Source: Pseudomonadota bacterium
GTDB taxonomy: Bacteria; Bdellovibrionota; Bdellovibrionia; Bdellovibrionales; JACTMU01
Length of the DNA: 64,000 nucleotides
Assembly: GCA_014584465.1 (NCBI GenBank)
Contig: JACTMU010000104.1
Location: 1 to 64,000, forward strand
Direction of reading: 5' to 3'
Position numbers and translations under genes: made by a program. Within the stretch, counting starts at the first letter, position 1; the number at the start of each line of letters is the position of its first letter. A model generated the notes under the pieces. That model made no database searches. It was given only the letters and a program-made list of their open reading frames with translations, and was not told where the DNA came from. This document shows, one piece after another, positions 93 to 43,227 of this stretch.

Positions 93-2132
93 TCAAGTAT
101 TATCGCCCCTAAACTCGTTGCTATCAATATCTACAAGACGCACCTGAACAAGCTGAATATCTGGTCCGTTTACTCCCTTGCGAAGATCGTCCACATACTT
201 CTCTGCTTCTTTTGAGATATTCCATGCCAGAATCACACCGTTCTGGACTTTGAGATGAGCAAGCTCGGCGTGAAACTCTTCAATCTGGTCTTTTCGAAGG
301 TTCTTATTCGACGAAGCAACGAAAACTGCACGCTCATCGCGGAACCCATGGATATAGTCACCCTTAGTCTTAGGAACTGCCTGATAACATTTCAAAATAA
401 ACTTGCGGTACTCCGGTTCATCCATCTCCCTGACCAGATCTCTCTCGTACACGCCGTGATATTGAACTTCAAAACCAGTTGTAGGTTTCGATTTCAATGG
501 TCTGATTCCTGCCGCATTTGAATAGGCGCTCTGTAAACGGTCTCGAGCAACCGAAACCGCTATACGTGAAATATCACAGCCAATCCATTTTCTACCCAGC
601 TTCTCTGCGACAGCCAGGGTGGTTCCTCCCCCTGAGAAGAAATCCGCTACTACATCGCCAGGATCAGATGCCATTTTCACGATTCGCTCTATTAACTCCT
701 CAGGCTTCTGCGTGGGATATCCAATCCGTTCGTTAGAAATGTGATGAAGACGTTGGATATCAACCCAATAGTCTTCAGGAATTTTTCCTTCGTTCTTGCA
801 GTAATATATTTTCCCATCTTTCTTTGTATACTTCCGCCCGTTCTCATCGACGTAATATCGAGCAGTAGACCTAGGCGCTACCAATATCTCTTTGTAATTG
901 AACTTATACTTTGCCGACTTAGAGTAGTGCAAAATGGTGTCGTGCTTTTTCGGAAGGGTCTTCTTTGTGTTGTTGCTGCCCGAATAGCACCAAGCGATGT
1001 CATCGACCAGGTTGTCATATCCGAAAATTTTATCTAACTCCACCTTAACGTAGTGACACGCATGCCAATCGAGATGAACAAAGAGAGATCCATCAGACTT
1101 CAGTAATCGCTTCATCTCCCACAATCGAGCATTCAACCATGCAAGATATGTCGGCAGGCCGCCATCCCAAATGTCCTTAAATGAACGAATCTCGTCATCA
1201 TCGCCGAAGATGCAGTTATAGTTGCGTCCAGAAAAAAATGGAGGATCGATATAGATCAAGTCCAGACTTTCATCCGGAAGAGAGCGCATCACAGCCAAGT
1301 TGTCGCCCCAAATAATCCTGTTAGAGATCCCTTTTGCGCCGCCATCCCAATCAATGGTTTCAGTGGTTAGAAATGGCAGTTCTTTTGTTTTAAAAGTCTC
1401 CTGAAAATTCTTGCCATCATAGCCAACGGGAGTTTCGAAACTTGGCATATGTCCGAAGCGTCTTACATACTCTAGCTCCGGTGTGGCCTCTTTAGGGTGG
1501 GTATGCTCAACCACTTCCTTTCGACGTGATTTCTTTTTCTCCTCTGCACGGCTCGGTCCGAAGTCGGCCAAAAGCGCATGCCACCTCTCGATAACCTTTC
1601 GATCACCACCACCATTGTTTGCATCATAAATGTCCGCCAAAGCGGTTTCGTATTTCTGAAGCTGATGGTTTAAATCGAAGACCACGATTTTCTTAAAATT
1701 CGTTACGATCGCGAAGTCCTTTTTACCGGCATCAGCAGATAGAAGATAGTTCCGCCCATGATGATCAAAGAATTCATCTAGGTCCTCAACAGAGCTAGGT
1801 ACAGCAAAGAACGCCCACGGATAGTAGTTCTCACTGACAGGCACGTAGCAGGCGAACTCCTTGAACTTCAAATTGGGAATGAAATCATTCTCGTCGCAGC
1901 CCATTCCGTGCGTAAGGAAGTATTTGCCACAATCGAAGAGATCACCGCTCTCGATCTTACCGTTCCGTAGATATTGATCGACGTTGTTACTCTTTGCTTT
2001 GCGAGCGACGTAGTTAAGAAAATCGAGAACATCATCCGCTTTGCGAGAGTCGACCTTTTGAGCCTTTGCCTTGGCACGCGACACGAGAGCCTCCGGTATG
2101 CAATCCGCTGTTGTAGAGTCTTCTCGGTTCAT
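93..2132 (-). CDS. Orphan DNA adenine/cytosine-N4 methyltransferase, beta class (type III Mod-like order)
   Basis: Transfers a methyl group from SAM to an exocyclic amine of DNA. From the ATG at 2132 the protein has 679 residues. Motif IV DPPF is at 296-299 and comes before motif I (DFFSGGGTT, about 497-505), with GYPTQKP at 471-477; this order defines the beta class used by type III Mod and many orphan enzymes. The first ~230 residues are unrelated to the catalytic domain. The stretch around FAIVTNFKKIVVFDL resembles the N-terminal part of some type I R and type IIG proteins, but I cannot prove it. The frame is open back to a GTG at 2267, but its AGGAA touches the GTG directly, so I prefer the ATG although its ribosome site is weak. 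No restriction endonuclease gene is seen beside it. Confidence 0.85.
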   Translation of the reverse strand: MNREDSTTADCIPEALVSRAKAKAQKVDSRKADDVLDFLNYVARKAKSNNVDQYLRNGKIESGDLFDCGKYFLTHGMGCDENDFIPNLKFKEFACYVPVSENYYPWAFFAVPSSVEDLDEFFDHHGRNYLLSADAGKKDFAIVTNFKKIVVFDLNHQLQKYETALADIYDANNGGGDRKVIERWHALLADFGPSRAEEKKKSRRKEVVEHTHPKEATPELEYVRRFGHMPSFETPVGYDGKNFQETFKTKELPFLTTETIDWDGGAKGISNRIIWGDNLAVMRSLPDESLDLIYIDPPFFSGRNYNCIFGDDDEIRSFKDIWDGGLPTYLAWLNARLWEMKRLLKSDGSLFVHLDWHACHYVKVELDKIFGYDNLVDDIAWCYSGSNNTKKTLPKKHDTILHYSKSAKYKFNYKEILVAPRSTARYYVDENGRKYTKKDGKIYYCKNEGKIPEDYWVDIQRLHHISNERIGYPTQKPEELIERIVKMASDPGDVVADFFSGGGTTLAVAEKLGRKWIGCDISRIAVSVARDRLQSAYSNAAGIRPLKSKPTTGFEVQYHGVYERDLVREMDEPEYRKFILKCYQAVPKTKGDYIHGFRDERAVFVASSNKNLRKDQIEEFHAELAHLKVQNGVILAWNISKEAEKYVDDLRKGVNGPDIQLVQVRLVDIDSNEFRGDNT

Positions 2133-2335
2133 TTTTAAAACTGCTGAAAGATTACAGTGGGTTGGCGCTGAAAATCGGACCAAGATCAGAGGTGCGATGA
2201 CGGTTTTTTGTTTAGTAGAGATGCCGACGTTCGGCCTTGATTTCGGGAGTCCAACGATTCTAATCACTTCCTGAATATCTTAACTTGGCGCGCTGATGGT
2301 CCAGTCACCATGATTACCCGTCACAGGTCCTGTTT

Positions 2336-3749: not shown

Positions 3750-4342
3750 AGTCCATCCAAGCCAACCGCCGCTTCCTTGAGTTTCGGCCGTATCTGCTTT
3801 TGATATGCGCCCCAAAACGGGGACCAGTCGCCGAGCCAGTCGGCATTCGCAATCTCGGATGAACCCATGCACGTTTTCCAGTCGGCACTATCGAATTCGA
3901 ACTTATCGGCGCATTTCTTTACTTCGTTTTTAACTCGGACTGAGCAGACGTCTTTCCAAAAGGATGTGGACTCAACCGCTGATATGATCTGCTGGTTGCT
4001 GTCGTCGGTAGAGAGATTTGAATTTGCAAGAATCGCCTCTAGCTTTCGATCAGCCTCTGTCGTGATGAACGGCATTGACTTTACCTTTTGCCATTCAGAA
4101 GCAAGGTTGGCGTAGTTCTCCTGAGTCGAAAGACTCTGAATGGACGTTTCAATTGCTCCTAGAATCCTTGCCTTCTCCGGCAGACCACCACGAATCGCGT
4201 GAATGCACGCTGCTTGTGCGCGCTTTAACGATTCCCCCTCGTTCTTTTTTGAACACATTGAGATTCCGAGAAGCGGAACAGCCATCAGTGCGATCGCGAG
4301 ACGGTGAAATAATGATTTCGGAAGGAGCCTGGCCGACTTCAC
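3746..4342 (-). CDS. Probable exported protein or atypical lipoprotein, unknown function
   Basis: 198 residues. The GTG start at 4342 overlaps the stop of the upstream gene (GTGA), so translation is coupled. The N-terminus has two basic residues and a hydrophobic segment ending LLGISMCSKK. This resembles a lipobox, but M at -1 is unusual. The mature part is mostly helical-looking, with paired cysteines (DVCSV, KKCAD, KTCMG). No family is recognised. It is the third or fourth product of the 2336-5779 operon. Confidence 0.65.
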   Translation of the reverse strand: MKSARLLPKSLFHRLAIALMAVPLLGISMCSKKNEGESLKRAQAACIHAIRGGLPEKARILGAIETSIQSLSTQENYANLASEWQKVKSMPFITTEADRKLEAILANSNLSTDDSNQQIISAVESTSFWKDVCSVRVKNEVKKCADKFEFDSADWKTCMGSSEIANADWLGDWSPFWGAYQKQIRPKLKEAAVGLDGL

Positions 4343-4968
4343 TGTCCACCGCCATTAACAAGCTGCTCCCAGTGTTGATCCACTTTCTTTGCAAAGTCCT
4401 GGGAGATTCCGCCCTGGCCCCGCTGTCTCTTAATCGCTTCCATAATGGAGCGTTTAAAGTCGCCTTCGGGCATCGTGACAGTGGCAAAGATGCGATACCG
4501 GGTTACACGTTCACCCGTGTCGGTCGTAGTGGCGACTTTCTCCCAGTATCGGTTTCCAGGTCGAATTGAGGATGACGTGATCTTGCAGGCCTCAGCGCCG
4601 ATTCGCCGCACTTGATTCGCATCAACGCCAGTGCCTTCCTCTGCGTTTTGAAACACAAAGTCCAATCGAGACTCAATAGATCCGCAGATCGATCCTTTCG
4701 CATTATTCTCGGCCACTGCATATCCGGCCTCGACTCGGTGATCACCAGGGATAGTCGTTTGACCAAGGAATATGACGCTGCCGTCCCTGCGATCAAAAGG
4801 CTTCTCTTCATTCAGCCATGAAGGACGGTTCGACATATCATTGATTCGCGCCAGTACCTTGTCGGGAGCAGTTTCCGGAGTGAGAGCGTCGGACTCAGTA
4901 TTGTTTGGTGTTGATGAACATCCTGCCGAGATCAATACCGGAGCCAATAGTAAAGCGATCTTTCTCAT
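4339..4968 (-). CDS. LPP20-family-like outer-membrane lipoprotein
   Basis: 209 residues. A canonical lipobox (ISAGC) ends the signal peptide, so the protein should be lipidated and sent to the outer membrane. The following region (NRPSWL, then VIFLGQTT and AGYAVAENNAKGSI) matches the layout of LPP20-type lipoproteins: an Rxxw-like start, a glycine-containing strand, then a long helix of A..A..A spacing. The role of the family is poorly known; members occur near flagellar and envelope genes. The ATG at 4968 overlaps the previous stop as ATGA. Confidence 0.65.
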   Translation of the reverse strand: MRKIALLLAPVLISAGCSSTPNNTESDALTPETAPDKVLARINDMSNRPSWLNEEKPFDRRDGSVIFLGQTTIPGDHRVEAGYAVAENNAKGSICGSIESRLDFVFQNAEEGTGVDANQVRRIGAEACKITSSSIRPGNRYWEKVATTTDTGERVTRYRIFATVTMPEGDFKRSIMEAIKRQRGQGGISQDFAKKVDQHWEQLVNGGGQ

Positions 4969-5324
4969 GACACTTTTCCTTTCTTAAGTCTTGCTTGAAT
5001 GTCGGCTTGAACCTTCATCTCAACTATTCCGGCGTTGTCCCTGAAGTTCGATCCGCCGCCATTTTGATTCATGTCGTAAGTATTGGGATGCAGATAGGTG
5101 TAATACTCGCGACCCCTGGCAAGAGCTTCTTGATGCTTTTGCGAACTCTCGGGATCTTCTTGCAGATCAAATAGCGCTTTGTCGTAGAGCGCCTTTGTGG
5201 CGGCAACCTGGGCCTGAAGTGCCAATCCTTTTTTTCGACCAACTTTGAGCGCAAGCACGATAATGCCGACAGGCACGGAAAGAAACGCGAGAACGATCAA
5301 TACACTTATGATTATCTCGATCAT
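4965..5324 (-). CDS. Single-pass inner-membrane protein, unknown
   Basis: 119 residues: an N-terminal transmembrane helix (residues ~3-27, IIISVLIVLAFLSVPVGIIVL in part), a basic stop-transfer VGRKKG, then an amphipathic alanine-rich helix that could form a coiled coil, and a polar tail with NQNGGG. It is joined to both neighbours by ATGA overlaps, so it is made together with the XRE regulator upstream and the lipoprotein downstream. Confidence 0.65.
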   Translation of the reverse strand: MIEIIISVLIVLAFLSVPVGIIVLALKVGRKKGLALQAQVAATKALYDKALFDLQEDPESSQKHQEALARGREYYTYLHPNTYDMNQNGGGSNFRDNAGIVEMKVQADIQARLKKGKVS

Positions 5325-5779
5325 TTTCCACTTCCTTTCTTCGGGACAAGACGCTCGATCTTGATGCGGCAGATTCCCTCAAAAAGTTCCTGTTCAGAGA
5401 AGAGGTCAGACAAAGTGAGATTTTCGAAGTCGCGGGATTCAGGCTCGCCAAGCAGAAGCTCTTTGAACCCTATGTTGAGCGCCTTAGCGAGCTTGGCTAC
5501 GGCCTGGAGATCGTGCGGGTTTGCATTCGCAGTCCACGACTGAACGACCGAGCGACTGACGCCTGCCATCTCAGCGATCGCGCCGACGCTGAGGCCGCGC
5601 TCTTTCATTACCTTCTCTAAAATTCTGGCAAACGGGAGCTTGTCTGTGCCCCGCCGCTTTCTTCTTATCTCCGCCATAATATTTAATAATCGAACGGTTT
5701 CGGGATTGAGTGGACCCCCGCGCATCGCAAAAACGCAACTCCGTACAGCTTCCTCAATAAGAGACAGAGTTTCGTACAC
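5321..5779 (-). CDS. XRE-family helix-turn-helix regulator
   Basis: 152 residues. Residues ~52-110 form a Cro/C1-type HTH: ILEKVMKERGLSVGAIAEMA, then GVSRSVVQSW as the recognition helix, then LAKALNIGFKELLLGE. It heads the leftward five-to-six gene envelope operon and is divergent from the gene at 5847, so it probably controls this intergenic region. The GTG start at 5779 lies at the edge of the inverted repeat CCTAC-N6-GTAGG (5779-5794), a candidate operator. Internal ATGs at 5725 and 5677 are possible alternative starts without good ribosome sites. Confidence 0.8.
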   Translation of the reverse strand: MYETLSLIEEAVRSCVFAMRGGPLNPETVRLLNIMAEIRRKRRGTDKLPFARILEKVMKERGLSVGAIAEMAGVSRSVVQSWTANANPHDLQAVAKLAKALNIGFKELLLGEPESRDFENLTLSDLFSEQELFEGICRIKIERLVPKKGSGK

Positions 5780-5846: not shown

Positions 5847-6278
5847 ATGGAAAAGCAAAAGCCGAAGCTTGTTGATTCGAAGAAGACGGATACGCCCGTA
5901 ATGGACCAGATCAAGGCGACTCTGGAAAAGAAACCATCTCAAGGAGACCTCGCGACTCCGAGGGCGGATTCGAAACCGAGCGGCGATGTCCTCACCCAGC
6001 GTGAAGCAGTCTATGTTGAAGTGATGCGAGTTGTTCGGGAAGAAAAGATCGCAGTAGGAGAAGGCCAGGCTGTAAAACCACTCCTAAGCGAGCCGCAGAT
6101 CAAAAAGATCTGCTCCGCACTTGTAGTAGGTTTCCAGGCGAAAAAGATCGCTTTGAAGGACACGCCGTCAAACAAGCAAAAGCTGGCTGACCCAAAGCTC
6201 ATGGATCTCTACTGTCTCGGCCTTCTCAACAACTGGCTCCGCCGCGACAAAAGGCTGAACGGAACTTTGGCAAAGTAA
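5847..6278 (+). CDS. Hypothetical element protein
   Basis: 143 residues with a very good ribosome site (AAGGAG, 7 bases before the ATG). The first ~50 residues are lysine/proline/aspartate-rich and probably disordered. The rest looks helical (REAVYVEVMRVVREEKIAVG ... LYCLGLLNNWLRRDKRLNG). No family is recognised. It is divergent from the XRE regulator and followed by a strong hairpin terminator at 6311, so it is transcribed alone. Confidence 0.65.
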   Translation: MEKQKPKLVDSKKTDTPVMDQIKATLEKKPSQGDLATPRADSKPSGDVLTQREAVYVEVMRVVREEKIAVGEGQAVKPLLSEPQIKKICSALVVGFQAKKIALKDTPSNKQKLADPKLMDLYCLGLLNNWLRRDKRLNGTLAK

Positions 6279-6354: not shown

Positions 6355-6479
6355 ATCACTACCTCTCCGACACAGAGTTTGCGCCGTGTGTACCACTCCT
6401 GAAAATAGGGGTTCCCTTGGATGCTCAGGCCAGAGGGGGCCGCTTTTCCCGAAGCGATGGCTCTGTATTAGGAGGCCAT

Positions 6480-6827
6480 ATGCAAACCACCCGAGGCATT
6501 CGAATTGTAACCAAACAAAGCGTCGATCCCGTATCCGAACTCGATGTGACGAAGCTGCAGAACCTGCGCGAGTCCAAGGCATTCTTGAAGAAGCGCCTTG
6601 AGCAGATCGAATCCGAGCTCGACTCAGTCGAAACTGAGCTGATCGAGCGGATTGAAGCCGGCGCACAGATCACCTGTCGGTATCCTGTCAGCATCAAGAC
6701 GTCTGAGCGACGATGCCCGTCTTGGAAAGATGCATTCATTCAGGTGGCTGGCGAGTCCGAGGCAAAGCGAATCATCGAATCGACGCGGCCAACAGTCTCT
6801 AAGTCAGTTGTCATATCCATGAAGTGA
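6480..6827 (+). CDS. Coiled-coil phage-like hypothetical protein
   Basis: 115 residues. The start is fixed by TAGGAGGCCAT just before the ATG at 6480; the frame is open further upstream but without a ribosome site. Residues ~24-60 form a charged coiled coil (LRESKAFLKKRLEQIESELD). The C-terminal part (CRYPVSIKTSERRCPSWKDA) resembles small proteins seen near phage recombination genes, but I cannot name a family. It is followed by a GGTCCTC/GAGGACC hairpin at 6841. Confidence 0.65.
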   Translation: MQTTRGIRIVTKQSVDPVSELDVTKLQNLRESKAFLKKRLEQIESELDSVETELIERIEAGAQITCRYPVSIKTSERRCPSWKDAFIQVAGESEAKRIIESTRPTVSKSVVISMK

Positions 6828-7110: not shown

Positions 7111-8337
7111 ATGGACGATCAAATTGCAAAAGTCTCTGACCCAAAGCGCTGGGTTATTCAGCACCTGCAGAAGCATGAACTGGACTACGATTACAAGACC
7201 GATGCCCTAAGAAAGGGCGACACCGTGGTTGAAGAAGGGCTCGCAGTTTCACTCCTGAGACTCGATGCCCGAGCGCAGGACGTCGAGGACATTCGGTCCT
7301 ATATCCGCGATGCCCTGAATGTGTACCGCCACGAGCGATCGGCAGTTGAACTCAAGAGACTCGCGGAAATGTTGAGATTCACACCTGTTCAACACGACCC
7401 GGTTTCCACGTGGGTCACGGCCGTGTGCGGAGAAACCTCACCACTGGATCTCGCAGTCATGAAACACTGGATATGGCAGGTAAAGCGAAAGCTTTCTGGA
7501 CGCCCTGTTGAGCATCACTTAATGCCGGTACTTTACGGGTCTAGCGGTGCGGGCAAGTCCGTAGCGGTGTCACGATTGATCGAACCACTCCGGGCCGTAG
7601 CGCTTCAGACTGACATGGGTGTATTCTCTGATCAATTTAGCAGAAGAGCGTTTGCTAGGAATTACATCGTCTTTTTTGATGAGCTACATGGAAGCGATAC
7701 CGCCGACGTGAACGCAATGAAGCAGATCATCACCGCCCCAGTTATCGAATGGAGAGCCATGCGCTCTGAGCGAGTCATGTCTGCCCCTCAGAATGCAACT
7801 TTTATTGGTTGTTCAAATGAGCCGGTTCGCGACCGCATTAAGGATCAGACATCATCTCGGCGTTTTTGGCAGCTCAACTGTGCCGTCCGCATCGATTGGG
7901 AAGCCATCAATCGAATTGACTACTTTGCCATATGGCAGTCGGTCGATGAGGACGGGCCAGCGCCGATTCTTGAGTGTCTCAACGAAATCCGCGCCGTTCA
8001 AGAAACCGAGATTCGAGTGAAAGACATTGTCGAGCAATGGGTCGACGAGATGTGCGAAATCGTGCCGTTTGAAGTGTCGTCGCTGACAACTTCCGAGCTA
8101 TACGAATCCTTCCGGGACTTTTGTTTCTGGCAGAACCAGAAGTCATTCCCACAATTCCAGAAGTTCGCTAGAGACGTGAAACGAATCCTCGAGATGTCAG
8201 GGCACGGGCCCCTCTTCAAGAAATCAAATAGAGGCACAACCTGGTGCGTTCGAATCAGGACCCGCGAAGCAGTGTCAGTCCCTGAGGGAAGTGACGCCAG
8301 TGACGGTCAACTGACATTTGACTTTGAAGCTGCGTAA
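7111..8337 (+). CDS. VirE/D5-like superfamily 3 replicative helicase
   Basis: 408 residues, started by GAAGGGAGAAAGTA-ATG. The P-loop ATPase core shows Walker A GSSGAGKS (143-150), Walker B YIVFFDEL (185-192), sensor-1 strand FIGCSNEP (231-238) and an arginine-finger-like SSRR (248-251). This is the layout of VirE/VapE-type and DUF5906 helicases of phages, satellites and plasmids, which unwind DNA at their own origin. No primase domain precedes the core; the first ~100 residues have no recognisable zinc or Toprim motif. It is the first replication gene of the element. Its end overlaps the convergent gene 8275-8601 by 63 bases. Confidence 0.8.
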   Translation: MDDQIAKVSDPKRWVIQHLQKHELDYDYKTDALRKGDTVVEEGLAVSLLRLDARAQDVEDIRSYIRDALNVYRHERSAVELKRLAEMLRFTPVQHDPVSTWVTAVCGETSPLDLAVMKHWIWQVKRKLSGRPVEHHLMPVLYGSSGAGKSVAVSRLIEPLRAVALQTDMGVFSDQFSRRAFARNYIVFFDELHGSDTADVNAMKQIITAPVIEWRAMRSERVMSAPQNATFIGCSNEPVRDRIKDQTSSRRFWQLNCAVRIDWEAINRIDYFAIWQSVDEDGPAPILECLNEIRAVQETEIRVKDIVEQWVDEMCEIVPFEVSSLTTSELYESFRDFCFWQNQKSFPQFQKFARDVKRILEMSGHGPLFKKSNRGTTWCVRIRTREAVSVPEGSDASDGQLTFDFEAA

Positions 8338-8601
8338 GAAGCTCTGGCAAGAGCGCTCATTGTCGAGAAAGAGAGCAAAGACCTCATAACACCGATGGCC
8401 CTTGGAATCCGGCGAACTTAGGATCACGGCTCCATTAGATTCCTTAAACACATACTCGATACCGGCTGAGTCAAGAGCCAAAAGAAGGCGCGCCGTCTGT
8501 GATGCTGGCCATGATCGACACCTGTCACATGCGTTGTGCATATGATCTCTCGCGAAGACATCTGGAGTCCAAAAAAGTAGGGCGAACGCGATGAGCCTCA
8601 T
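8275..8601 (-). CDS. Small secreted cysteine-rich protein
   Basis: 108 residues with a signal peptide (MRLIAFALLFWTPDVFA) and five cysteines, two of them as CDRC just after the cleavage site. No family is recognised. Its start overlaps the stop of the upstream gene as ATGA. Its last 21 codons are antisense to the end of the helicase gene, which is unusual for two real genes and argues for compact element DNA. Confidence 0.55.
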   Translation of the reverse strand: MRLIAFALLFWTPDVFARDHMHNACDRCRSWPASQTARLLLALDSAGIEYVFKESNGAVILSSPDSKGHRCYEVFALFLDNERSCQSFLRSFKVKCQLTVTGVTSLRD

Positions 8602-9036: not shown

Positions 9037-9978
9037 ATGAGCATTTTTGCGATGGTCCCTGCTTTACAGAGCGATGCCTTGGTAATGACGTTTCTAGACG
9101 GCAAGAGTCCAGCAACGCGAGAGGCGTACAGGCAGGATCTTCGGTGCTTCGAGCGCTTCTTGGCGGGTGCGGGATCAATTACCACTCTTTCAACTCTGTT
9201 TCAGCTCACTTCGCCTGAGTTGAATTTCGTTGTGATAAAGTATCGGGACCATCTTGTCGGAAGAAAGCTGAGTCCCGCCACAGTTAATCGGCGTCTCGGT
9301 GCAGTTCGCAGCCTGTTCAATCTCGCACGATTGCTCGGCCAGACCGGCGCTATTATTGAAATTCAGAATATCAAATCTGAGCCATACAGAGACACACGTG
9401 GCCCCGGTTTGCCAGCATTCAAGAGGATGGTGATTGCCGCATCTTCGCAGAACTCAACGAAAGCTATCCGAGACCAAGCCATACTCCGTCTGCTGTTTGA
9501 TCTCGCGTTGCGAGCTTCGGAGTTGGTCAACTTGGACTTATGCCACGTGGATCTTGATCAAATGCGGATCTCAATAAAAGGAAAAGGGAGATTGGAACGG
9601 CAATATCTTTCGATTCCTCCAACCAGCATTGATGCGCTGACGAAATGGATTAAGGTACGTGGCTCTGCTCCAGGACCACTATTTACCAACTTAATCCGAG
9701 ACGCCCGGAAGCGAGCGCGTCTTTCTCGTGTGGGCCTGTACGAGTTGGTGCGGTCGCTAGGCGAAGCTGCCGACATCAGAACACGGCCGCACGGCATTCG
9801 ACATCTCTCTATAAGCGAAGCTTGCAGAGTCGCCCAAAACAACGGTTATGCGCTTGAGGAAGTCATGGATCATTCAAGGCACAGGTCAGTAGCCACTTTG
9901 ATGATCTACCGCGACCGAGAGCGAAACGTGCAAGGGGCAATAGCGACGCTAGTCGCAAACACAATAATTTCGGAGTGA
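9037..9978 (+). CDS. Tyrosine recombinase (Xer/integrase family)
   Basis: 313 residues from the ATG at 9037 (AAGGAGGAGCG in front; the frame is open to 8893 but without a ribosome site). A SAM-like core-binding domain is at ~12-100. Catalytic residues can be placed: R159 (LRASEL), K183 (KGKGR), H252 and R255 (HGIRH), H282 and the nucleophile Y291 (MIYRD). All are present, so it should be active in strand exchange, for resolution or transposition of the element. It is separate from the tRNA-proximal integrase at 15.4-16.5 kb. The FliG-like gene begins 4 bases after its stop. Confidence 0.88.
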   Translation: MSIFAMVPALQSDALVMTFLDGKSPATREAYRQDLRCFERFLAGAGSITTLSTLFQLTSPELNFVVIKYRDHLVGRKLSPATVNRRLGAVRSLFNLARLLGQTGAIIEIQNIKSEPYRDTRGPGLPAFKRMVIAASSQNSTKAIRDQAILRLLFDLALRASELVNLDLCHVDLDQMRISIKGKGRLERQYLSIPPTSIDALTKWIKVRGSAPGPLFTNLIRDARKRARLSRVGLYELVRSLGEAADIRTRPHGIRHLSISEACRVAQNNGYALEEVMDHSRHRSVATLMIYRDRERNVQGAIATLVANTIISE

Positions 9979-9982
9979 ATAA

Positions 9983-10297
9983 ATGAACGGAAATCAATGT
10001 CTGTTTACATTTGAAAATATCGTCTTCCTAACCAATCAAGACCTCCTAACTCTCCTGAAGGAAATAGATAACGTAACTCTCCTCAAGGCATGCAAACGAT
10101 GCGACGAGATCATTCTTCATCGAATTCTCAGTCAGCTATCGTTACTCGCTCGCGATTACTTCTTCGATGATCTTGCAAAGATGGGATCAGTCCCGGATGA
10201 AGAAGTCTTGAGCGCCCAGAACAGAATCGGAATCATTTTCTCGGATGCGTACTTAAAGGGCCGTTTACAGGACTGGAACGGCGGTTTCGCAGCATAG
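9983..10297 (+). CDS. Stand-alone FliG C-terminal-domain-like protein
   Basis: 104 residues; GGAG lies 8 bases before the ATG. Nearly the whole protein follows the FliG C-terminal (torque) domain: FTFENIVFL (8-16, family F.FEDIv.L), LLKEID (24-29, family LREVD), ACK (36-38, family LKGA), then FDDLAKMGSV (61-70, family L.dDL...GpV) and EEVLSAQNRI (73-82, family .dVe.AQ..I). The acidic pair D62-D63 matches the torque acids of FliG. From remembered E. coli FliG, R281 maps to L55 and R297 to P71, so the basic torque residues are lost. It lacks the N and middle domains that bind FliF and FliM. It sits 4 bases after a recombinase gene on a mobile element. A role in altering the host motor is inference. 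Confidence 0.7.
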   Translation: MNGNQCLFTFENIVFLTNQDLLTLLKEIDNVTLLKACKRCDEIILHRILSQLSLLARDYFFDDLAKMGSVPDEEVLSAQNRIGIIFSDAYLKGRLQDWNGGFAA

Positions 10298-10317: not shown

Positions 10318-10337
10318 AAGGTGTCTGCAGACACCTT
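10318..10337. promoter_or_regulatory. Perfect 20-bp palindrome AAGGTGTCTG|CAGACACCTT
   Basis: Follows the FliG-like gene by 20 bases. A near half-site (CAGGACACCT) lies at about 10361-10370. It may be a terminator-like hairpin, a protein-binding operator or a recombination site. Confidence 0.45.
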
Positions 10338-10457
10338 TCCCAAAACGAGACAATTCTGCAGGACACCTGTCGGGCAAGCCTTATCGACTTCAAATCGCTA
10401 CACATCAGATAGCGAGCCAGTTCGACGGAATACTGGGGTCATACACAGGAGGCCCCA

Positions 10458-10702: not shown

Positions 10703-12022
10703 ATGAGAAACTGTATTCTGGGTTTTGAAGAGAGCAGTAAACCGCTGAGCGCCATTTTCGATGCCGTCGCAAAGGCCCCTTCGGAAATGATTTCTGTCGA
10801 TCGTGTTGGCGATGCGCCGGACAATCCCTACCGTCTTGCGGGCCGCAATCATGCCGACAACAAGGGCGGCGATAGCGGAGAAGTGGAGCACCTATCAGGA
10901 CAACTCGAAGAGCTTCCACTCTTGTCGCCTATTATCGTCGTCGATCACGGCGCTGAACGAGGCCTCCTCATCGCATCTGGGGTGAAACGCCTCCGGGCTG
11001 TCAAAATGGCGAACATTCCCGAAATTGCTGCGAAGGTACTCAAATTCGATGAGCTCTTTAACGGCGAATCGGCAAAGTGGTCCAATGAAAAGAAACGCGC
11101 GCTACTCGCTGAAGCTCTTAAAAACGTGACACACACGGAATCGTGGACGAACACAAAACTCACCGATGAGTCGGTCCTTTCACTTTTCAGAACTATCAAG
11201 GAAAACTACGGCTTCAGTAAGGTTTCTGATTTCAGTAAAGTCATGAAACGCGTGGGTATCAAGCGAGAAGACTCGATTTATCGAAATGCAAGACGCCTCT
11301 GGGGAGTCGCAGTCAACGACCGTTTGTTCGAGCAGGTCGGAAAAACAATCCCACTCTCTATCGCTAAGCGAGATGACATTCAAGACGACTTCGCGCTTCT
11401 TCAGGACGAAAATAAGATTGATGCCCTTCTCAAGCTTTTCGACATCTATGCAGATAGCCTTTGCCACGAGGATAGCGATAATCGCGGTAAGGCTCTCGTA
11501 GAAATGAAAAAGTTCGAGTCTGGTAAAGTCGTGACCTTAATCAAGCAGGTTAAGGACGAGGGTAACGAAAATATCGACGATGCTTACGCCGAGCCACGAT
11601 TTCCGGTGGACTTTCGAGATGGCTCATTGACGGTACCCAAAATTGATCAGTTCACTCTCTCTGATGTCAGCCGCAAGAATATCGCTCGAGTGGTCGAGAT
11701 CCATTACAATTTGACGTCCATCTGCGGTCAGATCGAGACCTTCCTCAAGGCTGTGCGACCGGAAGATATCGGCGAGAAAATTGACCGATCGAAAGTTCCA
11801 AACATCTCGATTCAAGCGCCGAACTTCGATCAAGGGTATCTCGACTTCGTCAACCGATGGAACATGCAATGGTATTGCAATATCCAAAAAGTTGAAAAGT
11901 TTCTGGAAAAGGCCGGCATCATCTTGGCTGAGGAGCATACCAAGCGACGCGCCGAAAAAGAGGGTCGACTGGATCAGTTACTCTTCGAAAAGTTCATTGA
12001 GATCGAACAATCGAAAAAGTAA
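10703..12022 (+). CDS. ParB-like nuclease-domain protein
   Basis: 439 residues from the ATG at 10703, preceded by AAGGAGGT. Residues ~30-115 match the ParB/Spo0J N-terminal domain: VDRVGDAPDNPYR, then LSPIIVVD, then LIASGVKRLRAVKMANI, the last corresponding to the GxRR CTP-binding box (here GVKR). The remaining ~300 residues are helical and unassigned. No ParA gene is seen next to it, so it may be a replication or regulatory factor of the element rather than a partition protein. A strong terminator follows at 12051. Confidence 0.7.
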   Translation: MRNCILGFEESSKPLSAIFDAVAKAPSEMISVDRVGDAPDNPYRLAGRNHADNKGGDSGEVEHLSGQLEELPLLSPIIVVDHGAERGLLIASGVKRLRAVKMANIPEIAAKVLKFDELFNGESAKWSNEKKRALLAEALKNVTHTESWTNTKLTDESVLSLFRTIKENYGFSKVSDFSKVMKRVGIKREDSIYRNARRLWGVAVNDRLFEQVGKTIPLSIAKRDDIQDDFALLQDENKIDALLKLFDIYADSLCHEDSDNRGKALVEMKKFESGKVVTLIKQVKDEGNENIDDAYAEPRFPVDFRDGSLTVPKIDQFTLSDVSRKNIARVVEIHYNLTSICGQIETFLKAVRPEDIGEKIDRSKVPNISIQAPNFDQGYLDFVNRWNMQWYCNIQKVEKFLEKAGIILAEEHTKRRAEKEGRLDQLLFEKFIEIEQSKK

Positions 12023-12094: not shown

Positions 12095-14809
12095 ATGCGT
12101 CCAGACAAATCAAAAATTCAAATCGGCGCAGCTCCGTTGAAAATTCAAATGCTCCGATCGCCTAATACAGGTTTGGTGATTGCGCTTGACTTAGAAACCA
12201 CGAGTCTCTCGATTCATGATGCGGAAATCACCTGGATTTCTTGGTGCACCGGAAATGACTACGGAGCGGTACCCCTCCGCCATCGAAATTTCGATATCAA
12301 CGGTGGTGTTCATCTGAGACGCGAACTGCCTGCAGACCACGAGACATGTCAGTGCGTACAGGTTAACGATCTCCTTCAACAGCTAGGTCCACATCAACGT
12401 GAGTACCTGTGCAACAACTATGATGAAGGATTCGTCAAAGAAATGATCCACTCGATTTTTTCGAATCCTCTCAATACGGTCATAATGCATAACGCAAAGT
12501 TTGATCTGAGTATTCTGACCGCAAGTGGTTGGATTTCTGCCGACGATGTATCAGCATCAATTTTCGACACACTACTTGCGAGCTATGTTTTGAATCCGGT
12601 CCGCGACCGGGAAAAGAGCGATCACTCGCTTAAGGAGCTCTATGACGTATACTTGCGTAGGGCCTCAGAACCACGACAGCCTCAGTACCAGCAAGTGACT
12701 GGAGGATTAAAGTTTGAAGACATAAAGCTCGATGACGCCGCATTTTACGCCGCGTTTGATGCCCTCTCGGCATTCCACCTGTATGAAAAGTTCCTGCCAG
12801 AGCTTCGCTCTGACCCGCGTCTGCATCGATACTTCACCGAAATCGAAACCCCGCATCTCTTCACGACAGTTGAGATGATGACATCCGGGTTCCAACTGCG
12901 GCCCTCTGATGAGCTGTCCGGCTACGGTCTGCGTACAGTCGCATCCTTGCAAGATGAGCTTCTGAGTATAAAACGCCGGATATTTCAACTCGTGGGATTC
13001 ACTTTCAATTTTGACAGCCCCAATGTTCTCCGAGGAATTCTATTTGGGAAGCTACGGATAACTTCACTCGATAAGAATCGAAAATCTGGGACGAGCAAGA
13101 TAGACTCCACCACACTAGGTAAAATCATTCGGGCCGAAGGAGCCAAAAAGCACGCTGACCCGCGAACACTTAAGATCCTATCTCATTTAATGCATGCGAA
13201 GCGGCTGACTGAGATACTGAAAAAGCATCGAGAAATGTACCAGCACCTAAATGAGCGGACTGGTCGATGTCACCCGAACTTCCGTCAGACTACGGCAAGC
13301 GGAAGGTTTGCTGCGAGCAAGCCGAACTCGCTTTCGTTGCCCAGTATGACCGGCATCAAGGAATACATTGTCTCTGCTCGCGGTAATATCTTTGTCATAG
13401 CGGACTTCTCTCAAATCGATCTGAGAGTGATCGCAAACGAGACATGGGAGATAGACCCAACCAGTGAGATGCTGTCGAGCGTGAATCGGGGCGATGATCT
13501 GCATTTAAGTACGTTGAAAGTTGTATGTCCCGATCTGAAAATTCCTGCGAATTGGATGAAAGTTAATGAGCAGGACAAGAGCGTCATTGTGAGGGATCCC
13601 GCCAGTGGCCTATCAAGCACAGCCCCATATGGAACACTGGGCAAAACCGACGACTATTTTGAAAGAGTACTCTCGGCAAGAAAGGAAATTGCCAAGCAAG
13701 TTAATTTTGGCATCTCATACGGGCTATCTGCAGCCAGCCTTCTGGACAACCTCAATAATCCTAGGGAATTCAAAAGACAGATCACTGATTTAGCTAAAGA
13801 GGAACTCAGCGAAGAGAAGCTGCTGGAGGAAATTTCGGTCATTGAACCGAAGGTCTACACGAAAGCAGAGGTGGATTCTTATCTTACGAAATTCCATGAG
13901 GCCTACCCGGGGATTCGCAAATTCCAAAAGGCAATCGAAAATGACTTACAGGCGACTGGTCATACCTACAATCTCTTCGGCAAGCTCTGCCGCCCTCAAG
14001 TCATCTCCCACTTCGAGTCCGGTACATTTGACGTGATGCTGGCTCAGGGTAAGTGGTACCGAGTGCGAATGCGAGTCTTGGAGATGGATGATAAGTTCCT
14101 CTACGGAATACTGATAGAAGCTAATGAGTTGACTGTCGTTGACACGAAAAACGGGGTCCCGCTGGATATTAAGGATGTCGAGCGAATCGTCGGTTATCGA
14201 GTTTATGACTTGAATGAAACCGATCTGGACAACGTTTTGGCCAATTACGCACTTAGCGGAAGCTATTCAAGCCTACTCCGCGGACTCGACGCACTTCACA
14301 TCCGAGCCAACTGGCATGGGCACGAAATGTTCAGACGCTTGGGCGCACATGTGCCTCACATTAAAAGAGACGGACAGCTAGAACCTGTCTCCCTGGCCGA
14401 GCGCTATCCGTTCATAAAGCTGAACCACCGTCAGATTAAATTCGTGTGGAACAAGGAGCGAACAATCGATCTGGCTTATCCTGGTTATGACCAGCTCAAG
14501 AGAAATCTCGTTTCAATCAGGATCCAGTCCGCCTCAATGGACTTCTGTAAGATCGCGATGTTTACGTTTCGCTCCAAGGCAAAAGAACTATGGCCGGAAC
14601 TCAGGCATCGACCCAAGATCGTGAACTGTATTCATGACGAAATCGCAGTCGAGTGTAATGAGAGTCAGATTGCAGAGGTTAGGGCGGCGCTAAAAGACGC
14701 CATGACCAATAAAGAGAACTTCAGGAAGTACGTGGCGCACGACCGCAGATTAGAAGTGGAAATCGGAGCTGAAGACAAAGTCGGCCGGAATTACAAAGGA
14801 AACAAGTAG
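12095..14809 (+). CDS. Family A DNA polymerase with 3'-5' exonuclease and a large palm/fingers insertion
   Basis: 904 residues from the ATG at 12095 (AAGAGG in front). Exonuclease: Exo I DLETTS (D32, E34), Exo II HNAKFD (D137), Exo III YAAFD (D222). Polymerase: TTASGRF (399-405), motif A DFSQIDLR (437-444), motif B R529-K530 to Y542-G543 with NFG at 537-539, motif C IHDE (846-849). All catalytic acids are present; there is no 5' nuclease domain. Compared with Pol I, two places are expanded: ~465-525 between motifs A and B, and ~165 residues (about 635-800) between LFGKLCRP, which takes the place of the usual LFGRRR, and RIQSASMD, which takes the place of PIQGTAAD. It should replicate the element together with the SF3 helicase. 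Confidence 0.92.
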   Translation: MRPDKSKIQIGAAPLKIQMLRSPNTGLVIALDLETTSLSIHDAEITWISWCTGNDYGAVPLRHRNFDINGGVHLRRELPADHETCQCVQVNDLLQQLGPHQREYLCNNYDEGFVKEMIHSIFSNPLNTVIMHNAKFDLSILTASGWISADDVSASIFDTLLASYVLNPVRDREKSDHSLKELYDVYLRRASEPRQPQYQQVTGGLKFEDIKLDDAAFYAAFDALSAFHLYEKFLPELRSDPRLHRYFTEIETPHLFTTVEMMTSGFQLRPSDELSGYGLRTVASLQDELLSIKRRIFQLVGFTFNFDSPNVLRGILFGKLRITSLDKNRKSGTSKIDSTTLGKIIRAEGAKKHADPRTLKILSHLMHAKRLTEILKKHREMYQHLNERTGRCHPNFRQTTASGRFAASKPNSLSLPSMTGIKEYIVSARGNIFVIADFSQIDLRVIANETWEIDPTSEMLSSVNRGDDLHLSTLKVVCPDLKIPANWMKVNEQDKSVIVRDPASGLSSTAPYGTLGKTDDYFERVLSARKEIAKQVNFGISYGLSAASLLDNLNNPREFKRQITDLAKEELSEEKLLEEISVIEPKVYTKAEVDSYLTKFHEAYPGIRKFQKAIENDLQATGHTYNLFGKLCRPQVISHFESGTFDVMLAQGKWYRVRMRVLEMDDKFLYGILIEANELTVVDTKNGVPLDIKDVERIVGYRVYDLNETDLDNVLANYALSGSYSSLLRGLDALHIRANWHGHEMFRRLGAHVPHIKRDGQLEPVSLAERYPFIKLNHRQIKFVWNKERTIDLAYPGYDQLKRNLVSIRIQSASMDFCKIAMFTFRSKAKELWPELRHRPKIVNCIHDEIAVECNESQIAEVRAALKDAMTNKENFRKYVAHDRRLEVEIGAEDKVGRNYKGNK

Positions 14810-15342: not shown

Positions 15343-15447
15343 ATGCCATCGTGTGATGCATGTCTATTCAGGCGATGGTTCAGTCCGACTTCAAATCGCT
15401 TCACCCCTGAAGAGCGTCCGCAATTTATCTATCGTGAAATTATATGA
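15343..15447 (+). CDS. 34-residue CxxC microprotein coupled to the integrase
   Basis: A micro-ORF starting MPSCDACLFRRW and ending FIYREII. GAGAGG lies about 14 bases before its ATG, rather far. Its stop overlaps the integrase N-terminal start as ATGA (15444-15447), which is the main reason to believe it, since the same coupling is used throughout this element. The CDAC pair could bind metal. An overlapping 76-codon frame from 15338 is thought spurious. Confidence 0.4.
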   Translation: MPSCDACLFRRWFSPTSNRFTPEERPQFIYREII

Positions 15448-16554
15448 AGACTCGAACTCGCGACCTCATTCGATTTTCGATGAAAGGGCCAGGACATGGT
15501 CGTGCCTCTTTCACGATCTACAAAGACGTGAAATCGGTCAGCGGTGGCCGCTCCTATATCAAAATTGACGATCAACGCCTCGACGCAATTAATAAGTCGT
15601 TCCGTGACGGCAGTCAGAGTCTTGAAACCTGCCGGGTTCAGGTTAAGGAAATAATTCGCGAGATGTACGACGATCTTCAGCGAGAAATCGGTATTGTAGT
15701 TCACAACCATGAAAACGAAAAAGTTCTGGAGGAGTTTTGGCGGAAGGAAGGAATACGCCCATCGCCCGCTCGTCTGCGAATACGCGGCCAAGAGGGAATT
15801 CATGCGCGCCATCGAGTGCCTCGGTCTCCTTTCTGTCTATTCTGCAAGCCGCGACGAAATCCAGTCATGTATCGATTCGAAGTTTTCGGCGAACACCCAA
15901 AGGCGAGCGGTGCAGCGATTGATGCAGATACTGAAGTTTATTGGCCGCGCCGATGTTCGACTTCGTCGAAATCCTCCAGTTCACAAAGCGGTCACATATT
16001 TAACTGCGAACGAACTGGAGCAGCTTCTTGTGTTCGTTGAGAGTCCTATTGAAAATGCCCTGATCAAGCTGTGCTTTTACTCAGGCCTCAGAATTGGCGA
16101 GGCCTATGCCCTAACACCGAGGAGTTTTCGTCCGCACAACAGCACGCTGAAGGTTATTGAGCAGATTGATCGGGAAGAAAAACGACGGCAAACGAAAACT
16201 CGACGGGAGCGTACAGCTTATCTTTGCCCCGAAGGTATTCCCGCTTTTCATGTCTGGGTGAATGCGAGCAAAGAGGAGCGAGCCGCGATCAATCGGCAGC
16301 ATGCCTCGAGAAATCTAATGAAAAAGTATTGCCGGATGGCCTTTCCGAACGACGACAGCAAGCACCTGACGTTTCATGCCCTCAGGCACTGTTATGCCAC
16401 CCATCTTCTCAGTCGCGGGGTCTCAATGAGTTTGGTTGCTCAATCGCTTGGGAATTCATTGACCGTGTGCCAGCAGTATTACACGGGATTCGAGCTGACG
16501 ACTGATTCAATTGAAGCGATCAACAAAATCATGAAGGGTGCCGGTCAGAAGTAA
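15444..16554 (+). pseudogene. Tyrosine integrase split by a frame change near 15750
   Basis: The N-terminal part is read in the frame of 15444 (MKTRTRDLIRFSMK ... EKVLEEFWRKE). The catalytic part is read from about 15757 in the frame of 15709 (EYAHRPLVCEYAAKREF onward). The catalytic half has R in SGLRIGEAY, then HALRHCYATHLL and QQYY as likely nucleophile; the usual GH is GN (SLGNS). Skipping one base in the GAAGGAAGGAATAC run joins both halves without loss. It may be a frameshift mutation, a base-call error or programmed +1 shifting. Being next to a tRNA gene it is the likely integrase of this element. Its stop is 6 bases from a convergent small gene. Confidence 0.7.
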
Positions 16555-16794: not shown

Positions 16795-16879
16795 TGGTAC
16801 CCGGGACAGGACTTGAACCTGCACACCTCTCGGCACCAGATCCTAAGTCTGGCGTGTCTACCAATTCCACCACCCGGGC
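16795..16879 (-). tRNA. tRNA-Leu (UAG)
   Basis: Read on the minus strand it begins GCCCGGGTGGTGGAATTGG and ends CCCGGGTACCA, with D-arm AATTGGTAGACACG, anticodon stem-loop CCAGA-CTTAGGA-TCTGG (anticodon TAG), long variable arm and T-arm GGTTCAAGTCC. CCA is encoded. The first pair is G1-U72, an unusual wobble that could result from replacement of the 3' end by element DNA. Its 3' end faces the integrase and the element. Confidence 0.95.
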
Positions 16880-17012: not shown

Positions 17013-17079
17013 GTCCGCCCGGTAGTCATCTTGTACAAGATCCTAAGTCTAGCGTGTCTGCCAATTTCACCAGGCGGGC
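17013..17079 (-). pseudogene. Degenerate tRNA-Leu copy
   Basis: On the minus strand the 5' half (GCCCGCCTGGTGAAATTGG, then CAGACACG and the loop CTTAGGA) is that of a tRNA-Leu (UAG). The anticodon stem has a mismatch. The variable and T arms are replaced by a short stretch containing the palindrome ATCTTGTACAAGAT (17028-17041). A 3' acceptor GGCGGAC still pairs with the 5' end except one base. It is not a working tRNA; it may be a scar of tRNA-targeted integration. The 16880-17012 stretch between the two copies holds further GTCTACCAA fragments and no gene. Confidence 0.6.
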
Positions 17080-17133
17080 ATATTTTCTTATTTCTATCAA
17101 TTTCGAAGATGAATGTCCATCGTCGAAAATAGA

Positions 17134-33558: not shown

Positions 33559-34398
33559 CTAGACCGCGGAGACCAACTGTTGAAGAAAAAACTGCAGTCC
33601 TCCTTTAGGCAAAGGCTCACAAGAGATTCCAGCAAGTCCCTTTGCAAGATTTTGGATCGATCGACTTGAAGGACTCTGCATGTAAGCTTGAGAGACAAGA
33701 CGCTGCTCTTTGGTCGCCAAAGTAAGGTTTGGGTCTAGGGGAATAGATCCTTTGTAGTCAAGACTTACAAATAGAAAGTGAGCTGCAACGTCACTGAGTT
33801 TCTTGTAGATAGATAAACCTTCACTTTCCTTGCTCACCTTATTGCAGACAACAGAAAAACGACTGATTTTATGCTGTTGGTTTAGAACTTTAATGAGTGC
33901 ATAGGCGTCTGTGAGACTTGCTGGCTCCGGCGTTGTGACAACTACAATCTCCTGCACTGCGGAGTTCAAATAAAGTACGTTATTGTCAATGCCAGGAGAA
34001 GTATCCACAAGCAAGTAATCAAACTGAAGATCAAGTTGATTGATCTGATCAAGCAACAAAAGCCGCTCAAAGTTGCTTAGATTTTGTAGTTCACCAAGGC
34101 CAGAACCTCCAGGAATCAAATAGATATGACTTGAAATACGATGCAGTATCTCATACAAAGTGACTCGACCTTGAATTACATCAAGAATTGTGTGTTTGGG
34201 TCTAACATTGAACATAATGTCCACGTTTCCCATACCAAGGTCCCCATCGAGGATCAAAGTGGTCTTCTCCATTCTTTGAAACTCAAAAGCCAAATTTACC
34301 AAGATCGTTGATTTTCCAACGCCGCCTTTCCCAGAGGTAATACTGATGGATTTTGTATACGTAGACGCTGAATTGATACGATCATGAAGTGACCCCAT
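33559..34398 (-). CDS. flhG: Flagellar number regulator, MinD-like ATPase
   Basis: 279 residues. Deviant Walker A KGGVGKS near residues 23-29, DGDLGMGNVD (switch I) and DTSPGIDNN (switch II) define the MinD/ParA-like FlhG/FleN group, which limits flagellar number and works with FlhF at the pole. It overlaps flhF by 17 bases. The C-terminal membrane-targeting helix is present (LQFFLQQLV). Confidence 0.93.
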   Translation of the reverse strand: MGSLHDRINSASTYTKSISITSGKGGVGKSTILVNLAFEFQRMEKTTLILDGDLGMGNVDIMFNVRPKHTILDVIQGRVTLYEILHRISSHIYLIPGGSGLGELQNLSNFERLLLLDQINQLDLQFDYLLVDTSPGIDNNVLYLNSAVQEIVVVTTPEPASLTDAYALIKVLNQQHKISRFSVVCNKVSKESEGLSIYKKLSDVAAHFLFVSLDYKGSIPLDPNLTLATKEQRLVSQAYMQSPSSRSIQNLAKGLAGISCEPLPKGGLQFFLQQLVSAV

Positions 34399-35800
34399 GC
34401 GAATTCCTCTCTTTCATTTCTGTTTGGGTAATTTTTTCAACATTTAAAATTAAATCCACAATTCTCTCTTTGGTTGCAAGCTCAAAATCCTCTGGAACTT
34501 TCGGGCCGACTCCAAATGAATGAACAGGTAAGCCGAGTCGCTGCTGAACATTGAAGATTGTTCCATACTGCTGAGTTTGGTCTAAGAACGTAAAAATGAG
34601 ATCATCGATCCCAATTCTAAGATATTTTTCGGCCATACGTTGAATGTCCGCATCTTTGCCCGCAAGTGAGGCGACGTGGTGAACTGTCATTTGGTTCGGA
34701 AAAGGCGGCAGGAGTTGCTTCATTGATTCGATTTCATTGACATGAACTAGACTCGATCCAGGAAAATCAACCAAAACGTAATCCACGCGGTTAATCTCTT
34801 GAACCACATCGGCCCACTCATCAATATTTTCAAGTGCTACAAAAGAGGCGTTGAGAAGCTGTGCGTAGGTTTTCAACTGCTCTCGGGCACCAATCTTTGA
34901 ATTGTCTACAGAGATAATTAAGACACTCTTCTTAAGATTCAATACGAGATGACTTGCAATTTTCACCAGAGTCAAGGTCTTTCCTTGAGCATTTGTTCCC
35001 ACAAAACAATGAATCTTTTTGAAAAATGGATGCTCAACGAGCATGATCTCATTCAACAGGTGCTTCGCAATGAACGAAAAGACCAATGGTTTGTTGGACA
35101 GCCTGTTTTCGGGAATTTCATTTTGAATGGCTCGAACGATTTCAGAAGCAATGAGATCGGTTAAACCAGAATTCCGCAAGTGCTGAAAGGCAAAACTCAG
35201 TGGAAATGGTATCCCAAAATCCGCCCCAGGGTAAAAACCCTGAGTGGGTCTCTTCTCATTTTGAATCTGAGACAGAATGGACTTCAGTTGAGCGACCTCA
35301 CTTCTAAGACCCGAGATTGTTTGCGAACTCTGATCTGAAACAACTTCACGTTGTGCGCCTCTTTGTTGCGCAACTTCTGATCTAGAGATTCTCTGTTCAA
35401 GATGTTCTCTGAGGTTGTCTGATGAAGTCCTGCGTTCTAATTCATTTGGTTCGTCCTGAATATCAACATAAGGAATCGAAGCACGATGTCTTGCAGTCGC
35501 AGCGGGAAACGTCATCTGCTCACCCTCAATACTCCTTTCAATGATCTGCTTTTGAACGGAAGCTGGACTTGATTGAAACTGCTCTTTACGTTTTTCTGTC
35601 ATCTTCGACTCAACATATCTCTTTTTCTGTAGTGTCTTTTCTGAAATGGCAGCCGTTACCTCTACAGTAGATTCTCCAACCAGACCAAACCGCTGTGAAT
35701 TGTCCTTCGCCGACAGGATGATCGCATCTGGCCCCATTTGACGCTTAACCATTTCAAGAGCTTCCTTGATGGTCTTGGCTTCAAACTTCTTAACCTGCAC
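34382..35800 (-). CDS. flhF: Flagellar placement protein FlhF with eroded GTPase motifs
   Basis: 472 residues. The N-terminal MQVKKFEAKTIKEALEMVK and PDAIILS are typical FlhF; a basic, glutamine-rich linker follows; the SRP-type NG domain begins near residue 200. The family marker EQLKTYAQLL is retained (307-316). P-loop is GTNAQGKT (268-275), G3 is DFPG (345-348) where family members have DTAG, and G4 is TFLD (404-407) where TKLD is expected. The loss of the G4 lysine suggests weak or altered GTP binding. Overlaps flhA by 11 bases. Confidence 0.88.
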   Translation of the reverse strand: MQVKKFEAKTIKEALEMVKRQMGPDAIILSAKDNSQRFGLVGESTVEVTAAISEKTLQKKRYVESKMTEKRKEQFQSSPASVQKQIIERSIEGEQMTFPAATARHRASIPYVDIQDEPNELERRTSSDNLREHLEQRISRSEVAQQRGAQREVVSDQSSQTISGLRSEVAQLKSILSQIQNEKRPTQGFYPGADFGIPFPLSFAFQHLRNSGLTDLIASEIVRAIQNEIPENRLSNKPLVFSFIAKHLLNEIMLVEHPFFKKIHCFVGTNAQGKTLTLVKIASHLVLNLKKSVLIISVDNSKIGAREQLKTYAQLLNASFVALENIDEWADVVQEINRVDYVLVDFPGSSLVHVNEIESMKQLLPPFPNQMTVHHVASLAGKDADIQRMAEKYLRIGIDDLIFTFLDQTQQYGTIFNVQQRLGLPVHSFGVGPKVPEDFELATKERIVDLILNVEKITQTEMKERNSHGVTS

Positions 35801-37886: not shown

Positions 37887-37889
37887 ACT

Positions 37890-38963: not shown

Positions 38964-38966
38964 AAA

Positions 38967-39746: not shown

Positions 39747-40018
39747 CAGTGCCTCACCATCTCGGATATATTTTCAAATAGGTTGGTGGTATAAACTGTC
39801 ATAACATCAAGCATCCAGGGGCCTGCGAGGATGATGATGATCGCAATGATGGCCATTTTTGGAATGAAGGTGAGTGTGGCTTCATTGATTTGAGTCACTG
39901 CCTGAAAGACACTGATAATGAGACCTGTCACAAGCGCCCCTATAAGAAGTGGCGATGCAATGAGCGCGGTGGTCTTAAGCGTCGCCTGCCCAAGGTTAAT
40001 GATCAAATCTTGTTCCAT
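39746..40018 (-). CDS. fliQ: Flagellar export protein FliQ
   Basis: 90 residues with two membrane helices (TTALIASPLLIGALVTGLII and IIIILAGPWMLDVMTVY in part). QAVTQINEATLTFIPK is the family signature. Next to fliP and fliR as usual. Confidence 0.94.
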   Translation of the reverse strand: MEQDLIINLGQATLKTTALIASPLLIGALVTGLIISVFQAVTQINEATLTFIPKMAIIAIIIILAGPWMLDVMTVYTTNLFENISEMVRH

Positions 40019-40044
40019 AAGATTCTCCTTTTAGAGTCTATATC

Positions 40045-40791: not shown

Positions 40792-40793
40792 AG

Positions 40794-42208: not shown

Positions 42209-42225
42209 CTTTCCCCCTATTTGGT

Positions 42226-43212: not shown

Positions 43213-43227
43213 GAGTTTTCCAAGCTC

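Follow-up and report, generated by a model that had tools for sequence, protein, structure and literature searches.

The window analysed here, a stretch of 64,000 nucleotides from a genome of the order Bdellovibrionales, contains an open reading frame whose product resembles a part of the flagellar rotor protein FliG and which is situated immediately behind a recombinase gene. This raises the question whether a torque domain of the flagellar motor was indeed captured by a mobile element and, if so, what the element may use it for.

Identity and fold of the 104-residue protein

The ORF extends on the forward strand from an ATG at position 9983 to a stop codon ending at position 10297 and encodes 104 amino acids. 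A Pfam search with this protein returned PF01706 (FliG_C) as the sole family (E=1.7e-13; 51.2 bits, curated cut-off 23.3), with residues 7-94 aligned to profile positions 18-105 of 108. The original prediction had described the match to the FliG C-terminal domain as running from end to end, which holds for these residues, except that the first 17 profile positions are missing. The family motifs that it regarded as kept are all found, as LKEID, DDL, MGSV, and EVLSAQ. In case of the NCBIfam model of full-length fliG (TIGR00207), only positions 237-316 of 338 were matched with 42.8 bits, below the cut-off of 226.7; the canonical FliG of the same host reaches 322.5 bits. The protein lacks the N-terminal and middle domains of a full FliG, which attach FliG to FliF and FliM, as had been proposed. 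Judging from the extents of the PF01706 and TIGR00207 matches, it starts with the MFxF hinge, which reads LFTF in this protein, and corresponds to the six-helix Calpha1-6 torque domain alone.

A phmmer search against solved structures recovered FliG of Aquifex (3hjl, E=6e-8) and Salmonella (8umx, 3.5e-6) as well as other FliGs. The AlphaFold2 model, for which an alignment of the protein with its two relatives described below served as input, comprises six helices (pLDDT 87.9, pTM 0.80). FliG C domains were the sole good matches of this model in a Foldseek search of the PDB, the best being 1qc7_B (TM 0.90 by target, rmsd 1.4 A), and the MotAB-bound FliG 8ucs was also matched with a TM of 0.85. 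The region 9983-10297 indeed encodes the C-terminal torque domain of FliG as a protein of its own, and both the profile search and the predicted fold, either of which had been named as a possible refutation, returned FliG_C. A chance match as the origin of this signal was ruled out by profile, fold, and recurrence.

A phage gene was considered as well and rejected, since no match was obtained in PHROGs, INPHARED phages, IMG/VR scans, and the viral structure library to which the model was compared. A plasmid homologue of FliG_C was likewise rejected: the 15 matches obtained have less than 35% identity, are labelled as ordinary FliG where an annotation exists, and are mostly located on chromosome-sized records.

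Among 40 relatives, non-canonical FliG_C proteins occur repeatedly, namely as stand-alone proteins of ~145 aa, as proteins of ~230 aa with a coiled coil, and as proteins of ~560-600 aa whose N-terminal part is of membrane type and perhaps FliF-like. The window ORF is the sole frame near 100 aa among the FliG_C matches in these genomes. Bdellovibrio-like chromosomal paralogs besides canonical FliG were noted at L003 1399-2082 (G000:C37), L004 1414-1944 (G000:C70), L064-L069, L071 9000-10676, and L117 3815-5617. In the neighbourhoods examined, the genes around the ~145-aa type are those of an ordinary chromosome and include neither an apparent recombinase nor flagellar genes. Due to the fact that FliG-C without the FliG N-terminal domains is common as chromosomal genes and has no flagellar neighbours where examined, non-flagellar reuse of the FliG fold is a serious rival to any reading of the mobile protein in terms of the motor.

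The recombinase-FliG_C pair and its element

The gene preceding the FliG_C ORF (9037-9978, forward strand) encodes an XerC/D-like tyrosine recombinase of 313 aa (PF00589 Phage_integrase, 3.8e-18), which scores under the cut-off of the NCBIfam Xer models. Residues R159, K183, H252-x-x-R255, H279, and Y291, the presumed catalytic positions of the tyrosine recombinase family, are present and invariant in the alignment with the relative P0003. As originally stated, the spacing between both genes is 4 nt, with the recombinase stop codon at 9976-9978 and the ATG of FliG_C at 9983. A ribosome-binding-like sequence, GGAG, is located on the same strand within the 3' end of the recombinase gene (9972-9975), 7 nt upstream of this ATG.

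A single relative of the FliG_C protein (45% identity over 97 aa) was identified in the 141 genomes of the order that were searched. It belongs to genome G060 (locus L074), where its gene, given a TTG start, overlaps the 3' end of the gene for a 63%-identical recombinase by 14 nt. When GTDB contigs were scanned with the FliG_C protein of the window alone, no match was obtained; a recombinase alignment was needed as an anchor. The same scan with two recombinases revealed a third pair in L073, a Bdellovibrionaceae MAG, in which a FliG_C protein of 100 aa is encoded 1 nt behind a recombinase of 64% identity. Both relatives score above the PF01706 cut-off of 23.3 bits (39.6 bits and, for L073, 29.3 bits), and GGAG is situated upstream of FliG_C in L073 and L074 as well. 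The search for such pairs in other Bdellovibrionota that had been suggested with the prediction thus yielded two further cases, and the gap of 4 nt in the window, the gap of 1 nt, and the overlap of 14 nt are all arrangements that favour the joint expression with the recombinase proposed there.

Across the 369 genomes of the phylum that were searched in full, FliG_C of this type was found in three only, besides weaker matches to full-length FliG, and both closest relatives of the recombinase carry an adjacent FliG_C ORF. Apart from itself, the L073 protein is matched best within the phylum by the mobile protein of G060 and not by a canonical FliG. Each of the three hosts also possesses a canonical FliG. 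In the phylogenies, the mobile FliG_C proteins group together in a single clade (94/92, or 96/90 once the longest rows are removed), and so do the three FliG_C-linked recombinases (98/99). Since each protein forms a single clade, the phylogenies are most simply explained by one capture, apparently followed by inheritance with the element.

Supporting the proposed location of FliG_C on a mobile element, a module is common to the window and the related loci L073 and L100. Its clearly shared left edge is a gene for a lipoprotein-type protein (4339-4968, reverse strand; 65-67% identity in L073/L100), which was considered as a flagellar protein and rejected, as its model reaches a pLDDT of only 70 and has no fold match. 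It is followed by a Cro/CI-type HTH regulator (5321-5779, reverse strand; PF01381, 62% identity in L100), a small conserved protein (5847-6278, forward strand; 58% in L100, 33-36% in L097/L098), a small coiled-coil-type protein (6417-6827, forward strand; 40% in L100), and a VapE/D5-like helicase ATPase (7111-8337, forward strand; PF05272, 3.7e-18). In five of six relatives, an ATPase gene of this type precedes the recombinase gene, with 33-77% identity by tblastn in L100, L072, L096, L098, and L099 and no match in L097. A small, probably secreted protein (8275-8601, reverse strand; tblastn matches in L072 and L100) is encoded between ATPase and recombinase of the FliG_C-bearing elements. The module is completed by recombinase and FliG_C, and synteny with the relatives stops behind the latter.

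Further 3' in the window, genes were identified for a ParB-like protein (10703-12022, forward strand; a weak PHROG match), which is absent from the relatives and has no other copy in the phylum, for a family A DNA polymerase with 3'-5' exonuclease (12095-14809, forward strand; PF00476 1e-43, PF01612), and for a replication-initiator-like HTH protein. A second tyrosine recombinase, probably an integrase (15709-16554, forward strand; PF00589, 1.4e-16), is situated beside a tRNA-Leu gene (16795-16879). A partial second tRNA-Leu copy comprising the 5' half (87%) occurs at 17035-17080, which is either a remnant of a previous integration or a tRNA gene in decay. A direct repeat of 19 nt, of which 18 are identical (10385-10403 and 15386-15404), flanks the genes for the ParB-like protein and the DNA polymerase on both sides and is possibly an att site or a replication repeat; the search for att repeats gave weak candidates only. 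The left border of the element is out of view, as the window starts at the contig end, and in the empty-site comparison with G096 of the same genus the flank was too poorly conserved. Since the first recombinase resembles plasmid-encoded recombinases of Desulfomonile tiedjei (pDESTI.01, 43% identity) and Azospirillum (37-38%), the source of the element is likely to have been a plasmid-like replicon.

Host flagellar genes (flhG, flhF, flhA, flhB, fliR, fliP, fliO, fliM, and fliL, named by reading the ORFs) occupy 33559-43752, ~23 kb from FliG_C. This closeness is probably a coincidence, because the element in the L073 genome adjoins other genes.

More distant relatives of the element lack FliG_C, and comprise an ATPase-recombinase pair in L096, L098, and L099 and the recombinase only in L097. 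In these, the slot behind the recombinase contains AAA and DUF4276 genes (HEC-01-like), an unrelated ORF of 99 aa, or DUF2130 with a Type I methyltransferase; in L096, a convergent ORF of 468 aa is located there. Defence-type genes were noted at L097 7272-9135, L099 4368-7978, and L100 490-3805 (HEC-01-like AAA+DUF4276, Type I methyltransferase with DUF2130, and DUF499/mad1-type genes), and a DNA methyltransferase is encoded at the left edge of the window (93-2267). FliG_C might accordingly be regarded as variable cargo of a defence-carrying element, active in competition with phages or other elements (e.g., against infection by motor-dependent phages or against a related element that superinfects) and with no direct role for the recombinase. 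The defence-type genes of sibling elements, two of them in the slot itself, the DUF499/mad1-type genes elsewhere in L100, the methyltransferase of the window, and the fast divergence of FliG_C behind a conserved recombinase (see below) agree with such a role. We nevertheless consider it unlikely, as PADLOC gives no match for FliG_C, phage records contain none either, and members of this clade invariably have FliG_C in the slot, which differs from cargo that is exchanged freely.

Divergence of FliG_C and its stator-facing residues

Conservation differs strongly along the element. Between L074 and L073, ATPase and recombinase are each 81% identical, with 95% and 87% in the last two 40-residue blocks of the recombinase, whereas FliG_C is 26% identical. 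Between the window and L074, the respective values are 77% for the ATPase, 63% for the recombinase, and 44% for FliG_C. The L073 protein sits on a long branch (2.25 changes per site), which may reflect either very fast evolution or replacement by a distant allele. Gene swapping, sought as a conflict between the FliG_C and recombinase trees, was not significant (AU p=0.25), and only a difference in rate is claimed.

Such a branch and the loss of stator residues described below would also be expected from a decaying or neutral fragment of host fliG that was captured by chance. This explanation appears very improbable, due to the intact ORF, start codon, ribosome-binding-like site, and above-cut-off FliG_C profile in three elements at 24-44% identity. 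In addition, of the three codon positions the second shows the fewest differences in each pairwise comparison (0.31-0.42), as is expected of evolution under protein-level constraint.

The position behind the recombinase raises the alternative that FliG_C assists or controls this enzyme as an acidic armadillo-like adaptor, which would bind the basic recombinase and govern its assembly or the direction of recombination. FliG_C follows the recombinase directly in all three elements at distances compatible with coupling, and is acidic (pI 4.8-5.3), whereas the recombinase is basic (pI 10.0-10.3). Moreover, a perfect palindrome of 20 nt, AAGGTGTCTGCAGACACCTT, is located at 10318-10337, 20 bases past the FliG_C stop codon; no palindrome of this type is expected by chance (0 in window shuffles), it has a single copy in the genome, and it is a possible candidate for a recombinase core site or a hairpin. 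Near FliG_C of both relatives, a palindrome of this kind is missing. Relatives of the recombinase with 42-49% identity manage without FliG_C, no FliG domain is known to bind a recombinase, and the 81%-identical recombinases of L074 and L073 are accompanied by FliG_C proteins of only 26% identity, although a partner of so conserved an enzyme is expected to change more slowly. For this last reason a role directed at the host is favoured and ranked slightly above that of a dedicated recombinase partner, which we regard as somewhat unlikely.

For a host-directed protein derived from FliG, the charged residues facing the stator are of particular relevance. In FliG of E. coli, D289 and R281 pair with R90 and E98 of MotA, D289 facing R90. 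The alignment of the window protein with Salmonella FliG is gapless (residues 7-85 to chain positions 233-311, offset 226), and thus the residue assignment given earlier is correct: in E. coli numbering, K38 corresponds to K264, L55 to R281, D62 to D288, D63 to D289, and P71 to R297. A three-way alignment of the window, L074, and L073 proteins reads K/Q/C at position 264, L/T/Y at 281, D/D/K at 288, D/D/D at 289, and P/S/S at 297. Both stator-facing arginines are indeed lost, as predicted, and this in all three members; K264 is lost in two of the three, D288 in one, and D289 is the only one of the five charges that is kept throughout. None of the three members retains the full set of charges associated with torque generation.

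Five different chromosomal FliG-C paralogs of the ~145-aa type from the same order read E, E, R, E, and G at position 289. Because of this variation, the comparison is suggestive, for three members only, of D289 being not simply a requirement of the fold.

Proposed mechanism and comparison with known systems

Taking these observations together, the following mechanism is proposed. An integrated plasmid-like element would carry the captured free-standing Calpha1-6 torque domain as the second gene of a recombinase operon, from which it would be translated together with the recombinase. With FliG_C, the element would encode a module for binding a host protein, most likely in the flagellar motor, where FliG_C would occupy a FliG-C-binding site, either on the stator protein MotA or on a regulator of the motor for which FliG-C is the docking site. 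Motility may then be braked or modulated when the recombination operon of the element is on. D289 kept with R281 lost could permit partial engagement of the stator without normal torque, which fits a brake or a decoy.

A captured torque domain that is made with the recombinase and serves as a host-directed module, most likely as a decoy or modulator of the motor, is tentatively preferred by us as the leading mechanism, reasoned from sequence and predicted structure. This mechanism is favoured by family and fold, the pairing in three elements, and the single clades, by the presence of canonical FliG in all three hosts, and by the invariance of D289 at a position where the chromosomal paralogs vary. 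It is also favoured by the accessory defence-type genes situated directly behind the recombinase in related elements. A simple stator decoy is weakened by the fact that little is left of the known stator contact (loss of R281 and R297 in all members, K264 in two, D288 in one) and by the evolution of FliG_C, which is far faster than that of its neighbouring genes, and the motor reading in general by the number of members, which is three only. It is possible, on the doubtful side, that these elements represent a class of their own, in which the captured domain, made with the recombinase, grips stator or switch of the host and brakes or retunes swimming on mobilisation, i.e., a rotor-mimic effector.

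If the motor reading is true, a torque domain on mobile DNA that accompanies a recombinase in three lineages would link the mobility of an element to the motility of its host. Alternatively, the pair would mean that the FliG fold has come to serve as an adaptor in DNA recombination. To judge from the papers searched, each of these roles would be new, and each is testable with the protein of 104 aa. In the open-licence papers searched, no element-borne FliG domain and no recombinase-FliG pair is described, in agreement with the original prediction, for which no described system of this kind was known.

Among known systems, the XerC/D-like plasmid recombinases of pDESTI.01 and Azospirillum (37-43% identity to the window recombinase) are the counterparts of the first gene. 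Those of pDESTI.01 and Azospirillum thermophilum are located near replication genes, in case of pDESTI.01 a DNA polymerase gene, with no FliG_C annotated alongside. EpsE and YcgR are small cytoplasmic clutches or brakes of the motor, dock on FliG or on the stator, and are proposed to act at the interface between both. Their folds are unrelated, whereas here the proposed effector is the FliG torque domain itself and is element-borne. The chromosomal FliG-C paralogs of the same order likewise contain FliG_C without the FliG N-terminal domain, but the types of ~145 and ~230 aa possess ARM-C-like helices in front of it and branch apart from the mobile FliG_C. The closest likeness is to the C-terminal domain of FliG (PF01706; 1qc7, 3hjl, 8ucs), which is shared in profile, in the MFxF-like start (LFTF), in the six-helix fold, and in the D288-D289 pair. 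In contrast to FliG, the window protein stands alone without FliG_N, middle domain, and ARM-C, has lost R281 and R297, and is element-borne behind a recombinase; it is a known fold in a new genomic setting.
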